Shown here one piece after another: positions 40,366 to 50,235 of a stretch of 64,000 bases of DNA; positions within the stretch are counted from its first letter, which is position 1, and each line of letters opens with the position of its first letter. Both the position numbers and the translations under genes were made by a program. A model generated the notes under the pieces. It ran no database searches. It saw nothing but the letters and a program-made list of their open reading frames with translations, and was not told the DNA's origin. Source of the stretch: Chloroflexus sp. Y-396-1 (lineage in GTDB: Bacteria; Chloroflexota; Chloroflexia; Chloroflexales; Chloroflexaceae); contig NZ_KI911784.1 in assembly GCF_000516515.1 (NCBI RefSeq), positions 3,820,633-3,884,632 of the forward strand, given 5' to 3'.

Positions 40366-41040
40366 ATGAGCGTTCCGTATGGCGTATTGATAGGGGGATT
40401 GGGTGCATACACTGACGAATACCTGGTTTCATTATGTCTGACCGCTGGTTATCACGCCCTGGCCGTGCGCGGCGTCCAGGCCCTGTTTGAAAACTTGAGT
40501 CGGCAGATTGATCTGGCCTTGATCGACCTGCCGGGCAGTGAGCATCTTACTCAGATTCCAGAGGTGACCAGACATTTCAAAGGTATCTTGATCATTCTTG
40601 GCCCACGCAATGATCGGCTGACCGTCGAGGCCTTCCATTATGGTATTGATGATTACATCGCGCGCCCCTTTCGCGCCGACGAACTGTTAGCGCGTATGCG
40701 TGCCCATTTACGGCGTTATCAACGCAGTATGCCACCTCCCTTCACGATTGGCCCGTTCACCCTTGATCTGGCAGCCCGTCGCATTTCATTCAAAGATACC
40801 CCTCTGACGCTTGACCTGCCTTCGTTTACACTCCTTAATGTCCTGGCCGAAGCACCTACCCGTCTGTTCACTGCAACCGAACTCCTGACGCAGGTCTGGG
40901 GACGTGCTGAGGCTACCAATGTTGCCCTTCTCGACAAGAGCTGGCAGCGTCTGCGTCACCAGGTTGGAAATGCAGTTGATGTATTGGTTGGTGATGTCCG
41001 GCAAGGATTTGCTCTTTTGGCTCCCTCACCTTCCCCCTAG
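40366..41040 (+). CDS. Degenerate OmpR/PhoB-type response regulator
   Basis: A 224-residue protein with a receiver-like N domain and a winged-helix C domain. The usual acidic pair at the receiver start is missing (VLIGGLGAYTDEY). An Asp is present at the expected phosphorylation strand (LALIDLPG). The Thr/Ser position reads GPRNDR, and the invariant Lys is Arg in DYIARPFRADELLARM. The C domain has LDLPSFTLLNVLAEAPTRLF and RHQVG before VLVGDVRQGFALL. It is probably phosphorylation-independent. The last residues come from a dispersed palindromic repeat that runs from 41023 past the stop. Confidence 0.8.
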   Translation: MSVPYGVLIGGLGAYTDEYLVSLCLTAGYHALAVRGVQALFENLSRQIDLALIDLPGSEHLTQIPEVTRHFKGILIILGPRNDRLTVEAFHYGIDDYIARPFRADELLARMRAHLRRYQRSMPPPFTIGPFTLDLAARRISFKDTPLTLDLPSFTLLNVLAEAPTRLFTATELLTQVWGRAEATNVALLDKSWQRLRHQVGNAVDVLVGDVRQGFALLAPSPSP

Positions 41041-41080
41041 CCCCTTCCTCTCTACCACGGGGAGAGGAAGGAGTGAGGGA
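41023..41080. repeat. Palindromic repeat overlapping a gene end
   Basis: CCTCACCTTCCCCCTAGCCC, then CTTCCTCTCTACC and GGGGAGAGGAAGG, form the same dispersed hairpin family as at 9050 and 10561. Its left arm supplies the Pro/Ser-rich last codons and stop of the preceding regulator gene. Confidence 0.75.
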
Positions 41081-42124: not shown

Positions 42125-45100
42125 ATGCCTGTACGTACCATCCTGATCGTGTTGGTGAGTGCGTTGTTGTTGGGGTCGGGAATCATTGTGTATCCGACCG
42201 CCGCCCAAACCCCTTCCCCGCCTGCGACTACACCGCTGCCTTCAACACCGACGCCGGTTGTTTCATCAACACCCCAGACCGGCGCGTTGTCTGCCGATGA
42301 GCTAGGCAGGTGCTTCAACGAACCGCTTGTATGTCTGATCAACCTGGTTGTTACTGGGAATCTATGGCCTGCGGTTGTATTGATCGGCGTTGTGATTGCG
42401 CTTGCCGTAATCGAACCCTGGCGCACGCGGTTTGTGCGTTGGTTTGACCGGCTGATCGGCGGGCAGAAGCGAGACATCCAAGATGATGCAGAGCGTGAAT
42501 GGGAGAGGGAAAAGATTGTAGAGCAGCTCTCATATGAGAAGCGGCGACAGCAGGCGCCTGCGGGCCGCGAGCGCTACTTGCAGCGGCTGGAGCGTGATAT
42601 GCGCCGGATGGCGAAGATTCCGGCGTTGGGTCGTGAACAGCGCGAATTGAACCTCGAGCAGGTCTATATTCCGCTGTACGTGGTCGAACGCGAGCAGATC
42701 GAGCGCTTTCAGGCCTATTTGCTTGGTAAAGATGACTCGCGCCGTGAAGCATACGAAGCGGTGAATACCAGCCGACCGGTGTTCCGCCTGTTGAGTGAAC
42801 AAAACCTTTTGCCGAAGACGAAATCCGAAAAACCGGCAGACCCTGAACAGACCACCACCCGGCTGCTGCTGGTGGGGCGGGCCGGTAGTGGTAAGACGAC
42901 AACGCTCCATTACGGGGCGCTGGTGCTGGCACAGGCGTGGCGTGACAAACGAGGGCTGCACTTTTGGAGCTTGCGGCACGGACATCATCCGGTCTTGCGG
43001 CTGGCACAGGCGTGGCGTGACAAACGAGGGCTGCACCTCATCCGCGAACGGTTGGAACTCTTTACCGACCGCTGCCCGTTCCCGATCTACGCCCGTCTGA
43101 CCGAACTGATGACGTATGTGCGCAACCGGTATCAGGCTCAGGACCTGGTCGGTGCACCGGCTTCGGTATTGCTCGATGCCCTCGACGAGCTGGTGCGGCG
43201 CGATGTACCTGACTTGCCGACCAACATGGTGAGCGATTGGGTCAAAGAGGGTGGGTGTGTGCTAATGCTCGATGGTCTGGATGAGACCGGCGATGCCGAG
43301 GAGCGCGGCCATACCATCGACCTGATCAACAGTCTGGTGCGGGAATATCCGCATAATCGCTATCTGCTGGCCAGTCGCCCGTTTGAAGGGTTGAGTGAGC
43401 GACTGTCGGGATTCGTCGAGCGCCATTTGCGTCCGTTAGATGCAGACGACATTAAGCGTCTCCTGAACAATCTCTTTCGGGCACTACGCTTACCGACAGA
43501 GCAAGCCGCAGATGAGTATCACGATCCCACCACTCTCGTGCCGGAAGCTGCCGAACTGTGGCAGAGTCTCGAACGCAATCCGCGCCTGTTCGATATGGCG
43601 ACCAATCCCCTGCTATTGACCAGTATGGCGGTGTTGGTCGAAGGGCGTGAGCCGCTGCCGGTAGAGCGGGCCAAAATCTACGAAAAGCTGGTACGGCTGA
43701 CGATTGAAGCCTGGCGCAAGGCGCAACTGAGTCGCGACCGGCCGGGGGTCGTGGTCAGACTGTTCGAGGAGAGTGACGACAGTGTGCGCCTGCGCTTGCA
43801 GTTGTTGGCGGCGGCAATGCTCGAAAAGGAGCAGCGTGAAGTGACCTTAACCCAGGCCCGCGAGGTGCTGCGGCCGGTCTATCGGGCAAATAACCCCGAT
43901 TGGAATGACGAGCGGTGTGATGCGTATATCCGCGAGCTGCTCGCACAGCTTGCCTTGCATAGCGGGTTACTGCAAGCCCGTGACATCGACTCGCTCTTCA
44001 GTTTTGCCCATTTCACGCTACAAGAATACCTGGCCGCTCGTTATTACACCGAGCAAGGGCGTGACAAGGAAGAGAAAGTCCGCCGCCTGGTCGAGCGCTG
44101 GGCAGAACCGCGCTGGCGCGAGACGATTCTGCTGGCGATTGGCCACGAAGCGACCAGCGGCTCGCGTGAGACGGCGCAGCACATGATTAGGCAATTGCTT
44201 GCAACCGGCGATCCTGAAGCCATCATCCTGGCCGGCGATGGTTTGGACGAAGCGAATGCGCGTACTGTGGGTGAGCTAACCCCCCAGCGGGTTGAGGTAG
44301 CCAACCGCCTCCGCGAGCTTGCCGCGCTCACCCCGGCCTGGCGTCAGGTTGCCCATCCCGATCCGGTGGTGCGTAACCGCGCCGCGCTGATCCTTGACCG
44401 GCTCGGCGAGGATAACGACCGCCTCGGCCTCGATCCAACCAGAGCCGACTACTGGGCCGAACGTATCGAAGCGGGTGAGTTCAGCATGGGCGATGACGAG
44501 GGTCTGCATGATGATGAAAAACCGCAATTCATCTACCGCATTAACCGCCCCTTTGCCCTGGCCCGCTTTCCGGTCACCAACCGGCAGTACCTGCGCTTCC
44601 TCGAAGCTTTAGCGGGACGCGGTGATCGGCCGACGGTGAACGCTGCCCAGCAGGTATTGACAGAATGGCGTCAGGCAGAGTTATCGGATGACCTGCTACA
44701 CCCTCTGCTCTGGTCTGGCGCTCGCTACCGGCCCGGTGAGGGGAATCTGCCGGTGGTAGGCGTCACCTGGTACGCGGCCAGCGCTTTTGCCCGCTGGGTA
44801 GACATCTGGCTCCATACGATTGGGGTGCTGAGTACAGGTGAAGAAGTGCGCTTGCCCAGCGAAGCCGAGTGGGAGCGAGCGGCGGCCTATCCGGTCGTCT
44901 TACCGGCAAGTGCACCGCGGGCTGGGCGTCGCACCTTCCCATGGGGAGAGCAGTTGACAGAAACGCCCGCATCGAGTATTGTATCAAGTATTGAAGCAAA
45001 TGTTAGGGCCAGTGGAATTAACCACCCCTCGGTCGTTGGCATCTTCCCACACGGCGCGGCAGCCTGTGGCGCCGAAGACATGGCGGGGAATGTGTGGGAA

Positions 45101-45310
45101 TGGTGTAGTACGAGGTATGTTCGGTATCCATTAGGAGCAGATATTAAACCAGAAAGTTTTTACAATCGGACATGGGATAGAACATTTGTGCTGCGCGGCG
45201 GCTCGTGGCGCGGCACTGCTGCGAATGCGCGTTGCGCCTACCGCTACGACTACCTCCCCGATAACGTCTACGGCCCTTGGGGTTTTCGTCTCGCCCGTTT
45301 ATTCTCCTGA
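42125..45310 (+). CDS. DGR target: membrane-anchored NACHT-type NTPase with variable FGE/C-type-lectin-fold domain
   Basis: A 1061-residue protein. Residues 1-27 form a signal-like helix, 28-60 a Pro/Thr-rich stalk, and 79-97 a transmembrane helix. The NTPase has Walker A GRAGSGKT at 251-258 and Walker B VLMLDGLDE at 379-387, in NACHT style. A helical region follows (FAHFTLQEYLAARYY). Residues about 783-1058 are an FGE-sulfatase domain: FSMGDDEG, RFPVTNRQYLRFLEA, LPSEAEWERAAAYP, GNVWEWCSTRY and VLRGGSW. The last codons are the variable repeat of a diversity-generating retroelement. Residues 268-292 are a 25-residue duplication just after the P-loop. A signalling or conflict-type switch whose sensor face is diversified is likely, but this is an inference. 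Confidence 0.92.
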   Translation: MPVRTILIVLVSALLLGSGIIVYPTAAQTPSPPATTPLPSTPTPVVSSTPQTGALSADELGRCFNEPLVCLINLVVTGNLWPAVVLIGVVIALAVIEPWRTRFVRWFDRLIGGQKRDIQDDAEREWEREKIVEQLSYEKRRQQAPAGRERYLQRLERDMRRMAKIPALGREQRELNLEQVYIPLYVVEREQIERFQAYLLGKDDSRREAYEAVNTSRPVFRLLSEQNLLPKTKSEKPADPEQTTTRLLLVGRAGSGKTTTLHYGALVLAQAWRDKRGLHFWSLRHGHHPVLRLAQAWRDKRGLHLIRERLELFTDRCPFPIYARLTELMTYVRNRYQAQDLVGAPASVLLDALDELVRRDVPDLPTNMVSDWVKEGGCVLMLDGLDETGDAEERGHTIDLINSLVREYPHNRYLLASRPFEGLSERLSGFVERHLRPLDADDIKRLLNNLFRALRLPTEQAADEYHDPTTLVPEAAELWQSLERNPRLFDMATNPLLLTSMAVLVEGREPLPVERAKIYEKLVRLTIEAWRKAQLSRDRPGVVVRLFEESDDSVRLRLQLLAAAMLEKEQREVTLTQAREVLRPVYRANNPDWNDERCDAYIRELLAQLALHSGLLQARDIDSLFSFAHFTLQEYLAARYYTEQGRDKEEKVRRLVERWAEPRWRETILLAIGHEATSGSRETAQHMIRQLLATGDPEAIILAGDGLDEANARTVGELTPQRVEVANRLRELAALTPAWRQVAHPDPVVRNRAALILDRLGEDNDRLGLDPTRADYWAERIEAGEFSMGDDEGLHDDEKPQFIYRINRPFALARFPVTNRQYLRFLEALAGRGDRPTVNAAQQVLTEWRQAELSDDLLHPLLWSGARYRPGEGNLPVVGVTWYAASAFARWVDIWLHTIGVLSTGEEVRLPSEAEWERAAAYPVVLPASAPRAGRRTFPWGEQLTETPASSIVSSIEANVRASGINHPSVVGIFPHGAAACGAEDMAGNVWEWCSTRYVRYPLGADIKPESFYNRTWDRTFVLRGGSWRGTAANARCAYRYDYLPDNVYGPWGFRLARLFS
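45188..45295 (+). repeat. DGR variable repeat (VR)
   Basis: This 108-bp segment of the target gene (codons 1022-1057) aligns without gaps to 46960-47067. There are 15 mismatches, each at a position where the template has A. The replacements are C, G or T. Eleven codons change: R1029, G1030, A1033, Y1041, D1042, Y1043, L1044, V1048, Y1049, G1050 and P1051. The last 19 bases, free of A in TR, are identical and would serve as the initiation-of-mutagenic-homology region. Confidence 0.95.
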
Positions 45311-45397
45311 GTCTTTATGTCTTTTTGACTTTTTGTCATGATACAGTGTAAAGAGTTTTTGCTCCTCACTAGATCGATGCGATCGTAAGCAGGGGGT

Positions 45398-45420
45398 GTG
45401 GGGGACGGCTAGTCCCCCAC
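45398..45420. other. Perfect hairpin between VR and reverse transcriptase
   Basis: GTGGGGGAC, a five-base loop GGCTA and GTCCCCCAC form a nine-pair stem about 100 bases after the VR and 30 bases before the RT start. DGRs often have a hairpin after VR that aids retrohoming, but usually much closer. A terminator after the target gene or an RNA control element for RT is equally possible. A smaller palindrome, GATCGATGCGATC, lies at 45372-45384. Confidence 0.55.
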
Positions 45421-45450
45421 CCGCGATGGAAGGTATGAAGTGAGTGTGCA

Positions 45451-46527
45451 GTGATGAAGACGTATCGGCAGTTGTATCCGCAGGTGTACGATTTTGAAAA
45501 TCTCTACGCTTCCTACCGCGCCGCCCGGCGCGCAAAGCGTGGGCGGGCAGAAGTTGCCCGTTTTGAGGTTAGAGTTGAAGATGAGTTGTTCCGCTTGCAA
45601 GACGAGCTGCGTAACGAAACGTATCGCCCCGGTACGTATCGGAACTTCTACATTTACGAGCCGAAGAAGCGTAAAATCAGTGCCGCTCCGTTCCGCGATC
45701 GTGTTGTTCATCATGCCCTGGTTCGCGTGATCGAGCCGATCTTCGAGCGGCGGTTTATCTTTGACTCTTATGCCTGTAGACGCGGAAAGGGTACCCATCG
45801 TGCGCTTGATCGCTGCACCGCATTTGTACGTCGCTATCGCTTCGTGTTGCAGTGTGATATTGCGAAATTTTTTCCCACGATTGACCACGCTATCTTACTG
45901 ACAATTTTGGGAAGAACGCTTGCTGATGAGCGTATTATGCGTTTATGTGAACGGATTGTGCAGAGCGGCGACGGAGTGCTAGATAGTGAGCGTGATGTAC
46001 ACTGGTTCCCGGATGATGATCTGTTTGCACCGCTTCGTCCACAAGGTTTACCGATTGGCAATCTTACCTCACAATTTTGGGCCAATGTCTACTTGAACGA
46101 ACTCGATCACTTTGTAAAACGTGTCCTGAAATGTCGGGCGTATGTACGCTACGCCGATGATTTCCTGCTCTTCCATAACGACAAAGCAACCCTCCATGGT
46201 TGGTTAGCCGAGCTACGTCATTTTGCTGCCAATCGTTTACGGTTACTGCTCCATCCGACAAAGTGTCAGGTGTTTCCTACCGACAATGGCGTGCCGTTTC
46301 TGGGTTTTCATCATTTTGCAACGTATCGACGTTTGAAGCGACCCGTGGTGGTGCGTTTTCGGCGTCGGCTGCGAATGCTGCAAGAGGAGTATGCTGCCGG
46401 GCGCATCGACCGAGAGAAGATAGGAGCATCTATTCAGAGCTGGTGTGCACATGCAGCTCATGGCAACACCTACCGATTGCGCAATCAGATACTACGTCAA
46501 ACCGTCTTTTCACCAGCACATGTATGA
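45451..46527 (+). CDS. DGR reverse transcriptase
   Basis: A 358-residue reverse transcriptase. The catalytic YADD box is at 234-237 in YVRYADDFLLFHND. IGNLTSQ (202-208) in LPIGNLTSQFWANVYLNELD is the DGR/retron-type motif 4, and FLQCDIAKFFPTIDH-like text (LQCDIAKFFPTIDH) gives motif A. FRDRVVHHALVRVIEPIFER is also typical. With the Avd homologue and TR/VR pair next door, it is assigned to the DGR class: it copies the template RNA with errors at adenines. GTG 45451 or ATG 45454 can start it. It overlaps avd by four bases. Confidence 0.95.
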   Translation: MMKTYRQLYPQVYDFENLYASYRAARRAKRGRAEVARFEVRVEDELFRLQDELRNETYRPGTYRNFYIYEPKKRKISAAPFRDRVVHHALVRVIEPIFERRFIFDSYACRRGKGTHRALDRCTAFVRRYRFVLQCDIAKFFPTIDHAILLTILGRTLADERIMRLCERIVQSGDGVLDSERDVHWFPDDDLFAPLRPQGLPIGNLTSQFWANVYLNELDHFVKRVLKCRAYVRYADDFLLFHNDKATLHGWLAELRHFAANRLRLLLHPTKCQVFPTDNGVPFLGFHHFATYRRLKRPVVVRFRRRLRMLQEEYAAGRIDREKIGASIQSWCAHAAHGNTYRLRNQILRQTVFSPAHV

Positions 46528-46934
46528 ATAATATTCCCCTTTTTGCCAAGACTTACGATTTACTACGCTGGTTGATACCCACTACACTAAAATATCCGCG
46601 TGAACATCGCTTTGCGCTGGCGCTCCGAACACAGCAGGCAGCTTTTGAGTTCAACGAGCTGATTGTCATGGCGCGTAAGAGCCGTGATAAGCGTGAATTA
46701 CTGATACGCGCCGATGCTCATCTCGAGCAACTTCGTCTTTATGTCCGTCTTGCCCACGACCTAAAACTGTTGTCGCTTCGCCAATACGAATACGTTAGTC
46801 GTGAAATTAGTGGATTGGGGGCATTATTGGGAGACTGGATGAAACGTAGTGGTGTACGGTTCTCATCTGAGCAATCGCGTGATCATCAGGATCGTTCTTC
46901 AGATGGTGCAGACATGCATGAAACTAGTGTATAA
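46524..46934 (+). CDS. avd: Avd-like accessory variability determinant (four-helix bundle)
   Basis: A 136-residue helical protein. FAKTYDLLRWLIPTTLKYPR, then RFALALRTQQAAFEFNELI, LIRADAHLEQLRLYVRLAHD and REISGLGALLGDWMKR, match the Avd family, whose pentameric barrel binds the RT and template RNA in known DGRs. The chain is rich in Arg and Lys. The ATG overlaps the RT stop (ATGA), so the two are coupled. The last 30 residues are polar and probably disordered. The TR begins 25 bases after the stop. Confidence 0.9.
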   Translation: MNNIPLFAKTYDLLRWLIPTTLKYPREHRFALALRTQQAAFEFNELIVMARKSRDKRELLIRADAHLEQLRLYVRLAHDLKLLSLRQYEYVSREISGLGALLGDWMKRSGVRFSSEQSRDHQDRSSDGADMHETSV

Positions 46935-46959
46935 TAACGAATAGGAACTGACCGACGAT

Positions 46960-47067
46960 GTGCTGCGCGGCGGCTCGTGGAACAACACTGCTACGAATGC
47001 GCGTTGCGCCTACCGCAACAACAACAACCCCGATAACGACAACGACAATTGGGGTTTTCGTCTCGCC
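46960..47067 (+). repeat. DGR template repeat (TR)
   Basis: This non-coding 108-bp copy is the mutagenesis template. It has 26 adenines, concentrated in AAC codons (read in the VR frame they would give Asn runs). Fifteen of the adenines are changed in the VR and none of the other 82 bases is. A TATAAT box (46930-46935) lies 24 bases upstream, in a GTATAATAACG word also found before the target gene, so the TR RNA could have its own start. Confidence 0.96.
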
Positions 47068-47421
47068 ACTCACGCTCCTCGCCCGCCGGAAATGTGTTGT
47101 AAGTTGCTCAATTGCAATACCGAGGCATAACAGGAGAATGACAGGTCGGTTCCAGGTTCGCCGTAGGCGAGCCAAACAGGAACTGCGCCGCTCTTTGTGG
47201 TAGGTCTGTGCTACTGACGCTCGGAGCGGCGCGTTGGTGTAGAAGTCCTCCTTACCAACCTTACCGCCGGAGGAAAGGCGTCCCCTTGCAACCCCCTATC
47301 CCCTTCTGCTCCCACTAGGGTAGAGGAAGGGGAAGGATGGCTAAGACTCCTCACTTTCCCCCACTCTCTTCCTCTCTCACGAGGGACGAGGAAGGCCTGA
47401 AGATGGATTAGGACCTGACCC
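47068..47421. other. Region after the TR with inverted repeats and palindromic elements
   Basis: The first 170 bases may be the 3' part of the TR transcript, with two inverted repeats between 47155 and 47235. From 47285 to 47400 come two copies of the dispersed palindromic family (CTATCCCCTTCTGCTCCC and GGTAGAGGAAGGGG, then CTCTTCCTCTCTC and GACGAGGAAGG). No other gene was seen. Confidence 0.55.
47138..47203 (+). CDS. Possible 21-residue basic peptide downstream of the TR
   Basis: A short frame encodes MTGRFQVRRRRAKQELRRSL plus one Trp. GGAG lies five bases before the ATG, an unusually good ribosome-binding site. The peptide is strongly basic. The DNA also contains inverted repeats (GGTTCGCC with GGCGAGCC; GCGCCGCTC with GAGCGGCGC downstream), so it may instead be the folded 3' part of the TR RNA. 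Low confidence as a gene. Confidence 0.25.
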   Translation: MTGRFQVRRRRAKQELRRSLW

Positions 47422-50235
47422 TTACTGGTACGGTGATGGACTGGTTGGTGGGTAACACCCTTCTTCGCCATTCATCAGCATTCCCTCGGATGTAGAACGA
47501 TCGTAAAACGGCCAAAGGCGATGATTCAAACGCCGATAGGGATCAAAGACCTGTTTAAGGCTGTGGCTTAACGCTGCAATGGGTGTTACCAGTAGATGTC
47601 CCCATCGTGCTGCTTCTAACTCTATGGGGAGGAAACCAGCCGGAATCTGCGTATGCGGCCGGTGTTCAAGAAGTGCCTCGAGCAAACGCGCAACTGCCCC
47701 GACCGTTCCGCGTAGATGACCGTATATGATACCCTTGTACGGACGACCAGCTATTTCCGCCACAAGCTGTACCTGGTTGGCATAATGCAGGAGTTCAGTT
47801 AATGCCGTACTAAATTGTGCTGGTAACACTGCCATTCGTATAGGCCAGGTTGAGCTTTCGGTCGGAATAGAGGTGAGACGAACAATAGGTTCCCAGTGGT
47901 CTGCTTGATCGCCGTCCTCGATCTGTATACTGTTTGCACCACACCTGGTTGCCAGCGCCGCACATTCGCTTACTGATCGTGTACAGGCAGCCGGATGACC
48001 CTCAAATTGCACCACTGCCCGAGTCGCACCCATTGCATGCGACGCCGTGACGACTTCAACAGCGACTGGGCAGAGATGTGTCCCTGTCAGCTCATTCAGG
48101 AATTGATCGAGTCCGGCGATAGTTGGAAAATCGGTCATTAGTGTAACAGTAGCCGGTGGTTGCGGGAACGTCCGCAGTCTCACTTCGGTAATAATGCCTA
48201 GCGTACCGTAACTGCCGACGAAGAGTTTAGGCAGGTCATAACTACTCACATTCTTGACCACCTGACCACCTGTGTGGATCACCGTTCCATCAACTTGCAC
48301 GACGGTTAGTCCTAAAACCAGATCACGTAGCGTACCGTACCCTTCCTGGAGCGGGCTATCGGTAGCAGTGGCTACTGATCCTCCCACCGTAGAGCGATCG
48401 GCGGTCAGCATCATGAGCGGAAAGCGTTGATGATGGGCTGCCAGTATGGTTTGCAGCTCGGCCAGCGACATACCGGCCTCAACACCAATCGTAAGATCGT
48501 CGGGTTCGTAATGAAGTATGCGCCGTAGCTTACGAGTCACTACTACGACTGCTGGTGGTGTAGCCAGCGTACCGATAGCCTGTCGGGTGCCACCACCCCA
48601 AGGCAAAACGGGCAAGCCATACCGGTAGCAAGTCTTCATCACCGCAGCCAATTCTGCTGTTGAGTCGGGCCAAACGACCCATTGCGGTATATGACCTTGC
48701 ACAGTGAATGCCGTTGTTGCATCACCAGAACATATATCATCTAGCCCGACAATGTCGATCAACTCACGTTGAATCTGTTCTGCTGGCACCTGGATTGGCG
48801 GTATTGCCAGCCTTGCCGCGTGTTCCTGTGCAAGCTGCAAAGGATCAAGATGGGTTGGAAACACCTTTCCAGGATTGAGTCGTCGTTCTGGGTTAAAAAC
48901 ATGGTAGACAGCAGCCTGCGCTGCTAGATCGTCGCGACTGTACAATCGTGGTAAAAATTGACATTTCTCGCTCCCGATCCCATGCTCACCACTGACAGCG
49001 CCACCCTCGTTGATACTTAACTTCAACACTTCACCAGTGATAGCATGGGTTTTGGCCACCTGTTCCGGATCGCCCGGATCGTACAATACCAACGGATGCA
49101 AATTACCATCACCAGCATGAAAGACATTAGCAATCGGCATACCATAGTGCTGACTCAGCCGTTGAATATGAGCCATCATTGCCGGAAGACGGGTGCGCGG
49201 CACAACGGTATCGACCAGGTAAAACGATGGAGCAAGGGTGTAAAACGAAGCAAACGCACTACGCCTTGCCGACCAGAGGCGTTCTTGTGCTTCAGGGGTG
49301 GCGGCGGTCATCAATTTAAACGCACCGTGTCGATGGCATAGTATAGAAATCTCGTGCATTGTGTCGTCAAGGCCGTCAATGACACCATCAATTTCAATGA
49401 TAAGTGCTGCACCGGCAGACGACGGTAAATTAGCGTTTTGGGCGAGATTCACGGCTAGCATGGTTGTGGCATCCATCACTTCGAGTGCAGTTGGAATGTA
49501 GCCAGCAGCAAGGATTGCACTGACCGCCATGCATGCAGCGACGACGTCTGGAAAAAGGGCCATGACGACGCGCTTCGCCTCTGGTGTACGAGTAAGCCGA
49601 ACAATAGCACGGCTGATGATGCCAAATGTCCCTTCTGAACCAACCAACAATCCGGTAATGTCGTAGCTGTGCCACGTTGTCGTCGCTGTCCCATCACCTG
49701 TCCAGCACTGTTGACCATCGGCCAGCGTTACCTCAACCGCAAGAATATGATTGGTCGTTACACCGTATTTCAGACAACGTGGCCCGCCGCTGTTGTTTGC
49801 GATATTCCCGCCAATCGTACATATCTGCCATGAGGCCGGATCAGGAGCGTAAAACCAACCGTCATGAGCGAGTGCAGCACTCAAGTTGTAAGTGATGAGA
49901 CCCGCTTGCACGCATGCCTGGCGATTGGCGAGATCGATCTGTTCAATGGCATTCATGTGAGACATGTCAATCACAACACCGCCGTGCAAGGGCCTGGCCC
50001 CGCCAGCTAAACCGGTGCCGGCACCTCTGGCAACAATGGGTAGACCGGCAGCACGCACCAGCGTAACAATTGGAGGAATTTGTTCTGGATGAGTTGGCAA
50101 GACGACCAGATCAGGGCGTGGGTAATCGCCAGGTAACCAATCATGACGGTATGGCGCTAGTTGTTCAGGGTTGTCTATAACCTGTTCGGGGCCAAGCAAT
50201 TGACGCAAAGCATGGATCAGTTCGGTAACATTCAT
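47422..50235 (-). CDS. Glycolate oxidase GlcD-GlcE fusion (two FAD-linked oxidase domains)
   Basis: A 937-residue protein that joins two VAO-type flavin domains. The first (about 1-465) is GlcD-like: LPIVARGAGTGLAGGARPL, PDPASWQICTIGGNIANNSG and GLLVGSEGTFGIISRAIV, ending with the C-terminal site FHAGDGNLHPLVLYDP and SGEHGIGSEK. The second (about 490-915) is GlcE-like: VLPWGGGTRQAIGT, STVGGSVATATDSP and VKNVSSYDLPKLFVGSYGTL. In E. coli these are separate subunits with the Fe-S protein GlcF; no glcF is in the window. It oxidises glycolate to glyoxylate, the substrate of the divergent gcl module. Its promoter carries the shared operator. Confidence 0.88.
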   Translation of the reverse strand: MNVTELIHALRQLLGPEQVIDNPEQLAPYRHDWLPGDYPRPDLVVLPTHPEQIPPIVTLVRAAGLPIVARGAGTGLAGGARPLHGGVVIDMSHMNAIEQIDLANRQACVQAGLITYNLSAALAHDGWFYAPDPASWQICTIGGNIANNSGGPRCLKYGVTTNHILAVEVTLADGQQCWTGDGTATTTWHSYDITGLLVGSEGTFGIISRAIVRLTRTPEAKRVVMALFPDVVAACMAVSAILAAGYIPTALEVMDATTMLAVNLAQNANLPSSAGAALIIEIDGVIDGLDDTMHEISILCHRHGAFKLMTAATPEAQERLWSARRSAFASFYTLAPSFYLVDTVVPRTRLPAMMAHIQRLSQHYGMPIANVFHAGDGNLHPLVLYDPGDPEQVAKTHAITGEVLKLSINEGGAVSGEHGIGSEKCQFLPRLYSRDDLAAQAAVYHVFNPERRLNPGKVFPTHLDPLQLAQEHAARLAIPPIQVPAEQIQRELIDIVGLDDICSGDATTAFTVQGHIPQWVVWPDSTAELAAVMKTCYRYGLPVLPWGGGTRQAIGTLATPPAVVVVTRKLRRILHYEPDDLTIGVEAGMSLAELQTILAAHHQRFPLMMLTADRSTVGGSVATATDSPLQEGYGTLRDLVLGLTVVQVDGTVIHTGGQVVKNVSSYDLPKLFVGSYGTLGIITEVRLRTFPQPPATVTLMTDFPTIAGLDQFLNELTGTHLCPVAVEVVTASHAMGATRAVVQFEGHPAACTRSVSECAALATRCGANSIQIEDGDQADHWEPIVRLTSIPTESSTWPIRMAVLPAQFSTALTELLHYANQVQLVAEIAGRPYKGIIYGHLRGTVGAVARLLEALLEHRPHTQIPAGFLPIELEAARWGHLLVTPIAALSHSLKQVFDPYRRLNHRLWPFYDRSTSEGMLMNGEEGCYPPTSPSPYQ

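Follow-up and report, generated by a model that had tools for sequence, protein, structure and literature searches.

In a 64,000-nucleotide stretch of the Chloroflexus sp. Y-396-1 chromosome (contig NZ_KI911784.1, forward-strand positions 3,820,633 to 3,884,632; hereafter the window, whose own numbering we use), positions 42125-47233 of the plus strand are a complete diversity-generating retroelement (DGR). Its parts follow one another on that strand in the order target gene, reverse transcriptase (RT) gene, Avd gene, template repeat (TR) and structured RNA, and the host genome is a single contig of 4,890,986 bases. We consider it probable that this chromosomal DGR works and that it diversifies a membrane-anchored, NLR-like receptor with a cytosolic variable face, most likely in the service of anti-phage defence. 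If so, the cell would maintain an NLR-type receptor and purposely rewrite its binding face, a near bacterial counterpart of anticipatory adaptive immunity. At the level of sequence, the interpretation as a DGR is supported by the adenine-restricted difference between TR and variable repeat (VR), the DGR-type RT, the Avd protein, the FGE fold of the target and the structured RNA adjoining the TR.

Variation between the repeats is restricted to template adenines

The initial annotation had described a DGR with a NACHT target, an RT, an Avd-like protein and a TR/VR pair in order on one strand, and our analysis confirmed this layout. The TR (46959-47067, plus strand) and the VR (45187-45295, plus strand; codons 1022-1057 of the target gene) align without gaps, as had been reported, over 109 nt rather than 108 bp, with a non-A total of 83. 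All 15 mismatches fall on template adenines, again as first described (15/26 A, 0/83 non-A), and these adenines are read in the VR as G (6), T (5) or C (4). The ends of the repeats are uncertain by 1 nt, because the adjoining base on either side is an A mismatch too. Every altered codon (1029, 1030, 1033, 1041-1044 and 1048-1051) lies inside the range 1029-1051 that had been named as variable. A change at A in the A-containing codons of the TR never gives a stop, and about 4.5e15 DNA and 2.4e15 protein variants, free of stop codons, are reachable by change at TR A. That chance or an ordinary gene duplication made the repeat is refuted by the restriction of 15/15 mismatches to A (P = 7.6e-12 for random placement); the same layout also recurs in relatives (see below), and we regard this explanation as vanishingly improbable.

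The genome-wide search for further VRs that the initial annotation had proposed was run with the TR across all 4.89 Mb. It returned the TR, the known VR and then 11 short matches, all at E 0.13 or worse, and no second VR was found. One other FGE-like place, reached by a search with the target (E 0.01, 42%), was considered as a further VR and rejected, since it was absent from the TR-search matches. Directly 3' of the VR (45296-45355 in the window, and in relatives) there is a T-rich tract, GTCTTTTTGACTTTTTGTC, followed by GTAAAG, which is common to the close loci.

The reverse transcriptase groups with cell-borne relatives

The RT gene (45451-46527, plus strand) is an open frame of 358 aa in which the two motifs reported at the outset are intact, YADD at residue 234 and IGNLTSQ at residue 202, and its product matches RVT_1 (3.1e-20) and the phrog_1423 RT (5.1e-131). 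The nearest solved structures are 8ub7 (E 7.6e-49), which we take to be the BPP-1 RT-Avd-RNA complex, and then a group II RT (2.5e-22). The Avd gene (46524-46934, plus strand) starts in overlap with the RT stop. Its assignment as Avd-like held up: NF033474 DivGenRetAVD scores 104.5 bits, above its cut-off of 80, and bAvd (5.9e-21) and 4dwl, the Bbp7 protein of BPP-1 (E 9e-4), match as well.

At E 1e-60, 27/158 genomes of the class were found to carry a relative of the RT. At least eight RT matches lie on plasmids, the best among the matches listed being cyanobacterial at about 50% identity, and the best 8 of 151 phage RT matches reach 42% identity or less. We placed the RT in a tree of 31 rows that included cyanobacterial, planctomycete, viral and BPP-1 RTs. 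The window RT sits with other Chloroflexota RTs; it joins those of two genomes of its own genus, C. islandicus (G003) and G004 (87/94, not starred), and this genus group is nested in a nine-row family group (100/100), with BPP-1 apart. By these sequence comparisons, the window RT groups with cell-borne relatives and apart from BPP-1.

A conserved structured RNA adjoins the template repeat

The element had first been taken to end at 47067, the last base of the TR. On searching the 3' side of the TR for structured RNA, we found instead that a conserved structured RNA (the DGR RNA spacer; 47053-47233, plus strand) continues to about 47233. Some 185 nt directly 3' of the TR are common to eight close loci, with 75% mean column identity. 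The consensus fold of these loci has 51 pairs: in the outer helices the last bases of the TR are predicted to pair with spacer about 80-100 nt downstream, and these are joined by more spacer helices and two hairpins. Double changes occur in 20 pairs (39 cells), and 94.6% of cells pair. In the controls, shuffled alignments gave a mean of 13.0 and partners slid by 1-3 columns gave 7 cells or fewer; none of 500 shuffles equalled the signal on four of five measures, and 5/500 did so on the fifth (further pair types). The covariation sits in the spacer helices adjoining those that pair with the TR. For BPP-1, cDNA synthesis is stated to be primed by the spacer at its junction with the 3' end of the TR (PMC12875486), and the outer-helix arrangement is as would be expected if the same held here.

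A covariation model built from the eight loci (R1), to which the window RNA scores 175.9 bits by construction, was scanned over 31 sources and picked up seven additional loci with E values of 0.002 or lower. Two of these, L069 and L075, can be fitted only if large stretches are deleted, which leaves about 100 and 91 nt matched, and four more matches (E 0.06-0.7), two of them in stretches of the sister genome G002, were taken as chance. With 150 candidates scored per genome, R1 matched 3/8 genus genomes, the same three that carry a close RT; at E 1e-5 it matched 15/41 family genomes. On an Acaryochloris marina plasmid, which was chosen for its RT, R1 matched positions 971-1153 on the minus strand (E 1.9e-5) before any TR search was made there. 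A 123-nt TR overlaps the start of this match, and three VRs, lying in three annotated FGE-family genes, have 15, 17 and 17 of 31 A changed with 1 non-A change each. The A. marina pREC1 DGR (L113:172-8026), on a plasmid typed as conjugative, has IS200/IS605 family transposase genes between TR and avd.

Alignments enlarged by the new matches raised the count of double changes to 33/51 pairs and 110 cells (15 sequences) and to 35/51 pairs and 141 cells (23 sequences), equalled by 0/500 shuffles on all five measures, although these alignments favour the R1 fold because they were fitted to the model. Rfam returned three matches in 44900-47500, all far under their gathering scores. Run with filters off over Fischerella, Prosthecochloris, a Planctomycetaceae locus, a viral contig and 6 kb of BPP-1, R1 gave no convincing match (the lowest E, 0.02, came from the viral contig, and the best value for each other source was 0.21 to 2.3). 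In both Fischerella and Prosthecochloris the best match follows closely behind the RT; we find this position suggestive but do not claim the matches as true. The conserved fold offers a route to finding templates and points to candidate primer bases in cellular DGRs.

Related loci share the layout

To compare other RT loci (from collections holding one genome per species), we searched the region after each RT against the region before it for repeats in an A-neutral manner, keeping pairs with a score of at least 30. A repeat pair was found at 19/25 RT loci, the window included, with summed mismatches at 235/459 A and 27/1356 non-A positions; this sum retains the L074 pair (4/28 A, 18/115 non-A), which is not TR/VR-like, as well as the pair at L068, which is 39 nt long and lies where a contig ends. 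At the remaining six loci (L020, L057, L063, L067, L072 and L053) the same search found no pair. Another sum over 19 pairs (260/505 A, 14/1436 non-A) was set aside, as the scan behind it favoured A. The RT at L063 (genome G040) is very close to that of L060, yet the locus has neither TR pair nor RNA match, and is perhaps a decaying sister locus.

Within the genus, a close RT was present in 3/8 genomes and lacking in 5/8. The TR and target of C. islandicus and of G004 are on separate contigs. Over 72 nt, the C. islandicus TR/VR pair has 16 A and 8 non-A mismatches, all 8 at the two ends, and this A-biased match appears only in an A-tolerant scan; the neutral-scan match between its TR and its target contig was rejected as an unrelated dispersed repeat. 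In G004 the pair spans 49 nt, in which 7/13 A and 1/36 non-A sites differ. We found no clean empty site from G001 or G005, in which the flanks are arranged differently.

Targets of the relatives matched Pfam FGE-sulfatase in 9/9 cases and NACHT above the cut-off in 7/9, with L066 and L052 just below. The N-terminal plan of signal peptide, Pro/Thr-rich linker and transmembrane (TM) segment recurs in L058, L059, L060 and L062, and visual inspection suggests it also in L101, the orthologue from G002; more distant targets have different N-termini. In Oscillochloris fontis (L059:3739-6909) the end of the VR is out of frame relative to relatives and leads into a hydrophobic C-terminal tail, a shift that is possibly an indel from homing or an assembly error.

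The target resembles NLR receptors and is predicted to face the cytosol

The target gene (42125-45310, plus strand) encodes 1061 aa comprising a signal peptide, a Pro/Thr-rich linker, one TM helix, NACHT, helical STAND domains and an FGE/C-type-lectin domain. Pfam places NACHT at residues 350-452 (1.5e-9; PF05729 at 38.3 bits against a cut-off of 26.7) and FGE-sulfatase at 781-1058 (1.5e-42). Walker A and Walker B (DGLDE) are both present, and G254, G256, K257, T259, D383, D386 and E387 are invariant in 17 targets. When an AlphaFold2 model (mean pLDDT 73) was searched with Foldseek, NLRC4, NLRP3 and NOD2 were among the best matches (best E 1.5e-11). In VIA-align 2, chains of these three NLRs took ranks 1-8 (Z 23-26 over 419-453 residues of the model), including NLRP3 (7vtp; Z 26.2, 427 residues, 3.6 A) and NLRC4 (4kxf; Z 26.2, 445 residues, 4.0 A), and FGE-fold chains (PorK, EgtB, FGE and PvdO) aligned to the C-terminal half (Z 14.8-17.7). 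As modelled, the NACHT part of the target resembles animal NLR receptors in fold, and the original assignment as a NACHT/STAND-type NTPase is borne out by both the Pfam and the structural matches.

Hydropathy indicated a signal-peptide-like stretch at residues 5-23 and a TM helix at residues 78-96 (42356-42412, plus strand), with no K/R in the 15 residues before the helix and 4 in the 15 after it. By the positive-inside rule this asymmetry places the NACHT and lectin parts, as a prediction, in the cytosol. The membrane anchor proposed in the initial annotation is therefore retained as a predicted TM helix; the variable lectin face is predicted to be cytosolic, and so the target would not be a surface sensor. 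Just after Walker A, a perfect 37-nt direct repeat (42925-42961 and 43000-43036, 75 nt apart) adds 25 in-frame residues.

A sister genome carries a leftover target

The G002 genome (5,258,541 bases) has a single RT-like match, at 30% identity, and no DGR RNA match to R1 at E 0.01. It holds an orthologous target (L101:6932-10129; 69% identical) that is broken by TAG at codon 171. Set against the window TR, the VR region of this target has mismatches at 18/26 of the template-A columns, compared with 13/83 of the remaining ones (P 5.8e-7). Such an A bias in the sequence fits past DGR action at the VR-like end, but these columns are also those of the variable lectin loop, where ordinary divergence could add to it. 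A second relative (47%) is present in G002 at C1:1246080-1249151.

These remains bear on whether the window element is itself a recent relic, with a VR that was diversified in the past by an element that no longer works, for example because the RT was silenced or the receptor damaged. The broken target in G002, whose genome lacks a close RT and an RNA match, the RT of G040 standing without TR pair or RNA match, and the 25-aa insertion in the window NACHT would all suit such a history. In the window, however, the RT, Avd and target frames are open, TR and RNA are intact, and the TR/VR pair has 0/83 non-A differences. Between the VR of the window and the corresponding region of G002, 13/83 non-A sites differ, and the window TR and VR were therefore matched more recently than the species split. 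We consider a relic distinctly unlikely.

Proposed mechanism and function

By analogy with BPP-1, RT-Avd would bind a transcript of the TR and folded spacer, the 3' end of the TR would pair with the spacer and so place the primer, and cDNA made with errors, so that random bases stand opposite template A, would replace the VR of the target; we infer ribonucleoprotein (RNP) assembly, priming and retrohoming from that system. The codons that would vary, 1029-1051, belong to what we presume to be the ligand-contacting face of the C-type-lectin domain. The N-terminal helix would hold the receptor in the membrane with NACHT and lectin inside the cell, and a ligand on the lectin face may open the NACHT and lead to oligomerisation, as in bacterial NACHT/Avs proteins. 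The oligomer would then act via the membrane segment, and its most likely role is that of a switch to cell death or dormancy in response to phage. We propose action through the receptor's own anchor because no partner effector was present among the neighbours scanned. Phage sensing, the step that kills and an effector role for the membrane segment are put forward only by analogy with such proteins.

An active DGR might alternatively diversify a receptor for kin recognition or regulation in filaments and mats, similar to heterokaryon incompatibility, rather than for phage defence. Dore et al. (2024; PMC10907252) brought up this possibility. The same architecture would be expected under both readings, and neither a known defence partner in eight flanking proteins nor a PADLOC match of the target was found. 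Against kin recognition, characterised bacterial NACHT/Avs proteins are anti-phage (cited in PMC10907252), and a cytosolic sensor face is better suited to intracellular ligands than to contact with neighbours. We regard a kin-recognition role as unlikely, and favour anti-phage defence.

A number of observations weigh against a working DGR with a defensive receptor. Around the element, between 37.7 and 52.7 kb, eight neighbouring proteins were scanned and proved ordinary, with no known conflict-system adaptor or effector domains and no MoxR ATPase, vWA or VMAP of the VMAP/MoxR ternary conflict system among them, and PADLOC gave no match of the target at E 0.01. The 25-aa insertion after Walker A occurs in 0/16 aligned relatives and might harm the NTPase. 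The AlphaFold2 model has low confidence at the variable loop, and the lectin (FGE) domain folded alone was poor (mean pLDDT 54.7) and left unused. The base pairs that use TR bases are well kept, with 0 double changes in the eight loci. Live VR variation is a prediction, the genomes compared being one per species. Finally, a stable hairpin after the VR was found in none of five loci (z -1.2 to 0.9), and this hairpin is important in BPP-1 (PMC3240598).

A broader proposal combines two parts: that the RNA fold is kept from Chloroflexota to Cyanobacteria, making TRs findable from RNA structure alone without an RT, and that the receptor would be a one-gene anticipatory NLR with its own membrane segment as effector and a cytosolic, rewritten sensor. 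We advance this combination only tentatively.

Comparison with known systems

The Chloroflexus and BPP-1 (Brt, Avd/Bbp7, Mtd) DGRs are alike in their A-restricted TR/VR pair, RT, Avd and structured spacer 3' of the TR. The gene order differs (target-RT-Avd-TR-spacer here, target-Avd-TR-spacer-RT in BPP-1), and the two RTs are 33.5% identical. BPP-1 has a VR-proximal hairpin, whereas none was found in Chloroflexus; we know of no proof that a hairpin or cruciform downstream of the VR is required outside phage DGRs. Like the animal NLRs (NLRP3, NLRC4, NOD2) and the NACHT/antiviral STAND proteins of bacteria, the target has NACHT plus helical domains, but its sensor is a DGR-rewritten FGE/lectin domain rather than LRR, TPR or WD40, and its N-terminus is a membrane anchor. 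Its layout fits the tripartite plan of putative effector, NACHT and sensor. The Treponema denticola variable protein 1 (TvpA; 2y3c) has a variable lectin fold and matches in sequence over the VR region (E 2.8e-4); unlike the Chloroflexus target, its solved chain (294 residues) is without a NACHT fusion.

A NACHT-lectin DGR target is of a kind already described, and our additions are the conserved RNA fold and the leftover target in a sister species. NACHT-CLec (C-type lectin) targets of clade 5D DGRs in multicellular bacteria have been proposed as antigen sensors, and the hosts of related RTs include filamentous Chloroflexi (Dore et al., 2024; PMC10907252). In the same study, Thiohalocapsa PB-PSB1 DGR 3 of clade 5D likewise has NACHT fused to a C-terminal, DGR-diversified lectin, its first target has both domains predicted cytoplasmic, as here, and N-terminal extensions without known domains are common among clade 5D targets. 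Compared with that DGR, Chloroflexus has one target rather than two, an N-terminal signal peptide, a Pro/Thr linker and a TM helix, and is without a protease among the neighbours scanned. More generally, FGS domains of DGRs occur in conflict systems (PMC7159879), and DGRs have been proposed to act in prokaryotic immunity (PMC10053308). The available passages of PMC10053308 yielded none on NACHT or Chloroflexi, and the terms Chloroflex and NACHT are absent from the available main text of PMC8144416. In our literature search, outside which most subscription papers lay, we found no paper on a DGR with Chloroflexus and no title on DGR RNA covariation; pairing DGR with covariance model returned preprints on other RTs only. 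The BPP-1 DGR RNP is also the subject of a Nature paper from 2025, which probably discusses RNA conservation.

Chloroflexus, a filamentous bacterium, is culturable, and because it can be grown and its DGR has one target and one TR, with no further VR found in the genome, the element offers a test bed. The genus supplies natural controls in the three genomes with and the five without a close RT, one of the latter being G002 with its broken target. Lastly, a loose repeat (68-72%), CCCCTTCCTCTC...GAGAGGAAGG, flanks the DGR region on both sides, at 41030-41076, 47289-47335 and 47354-47400.

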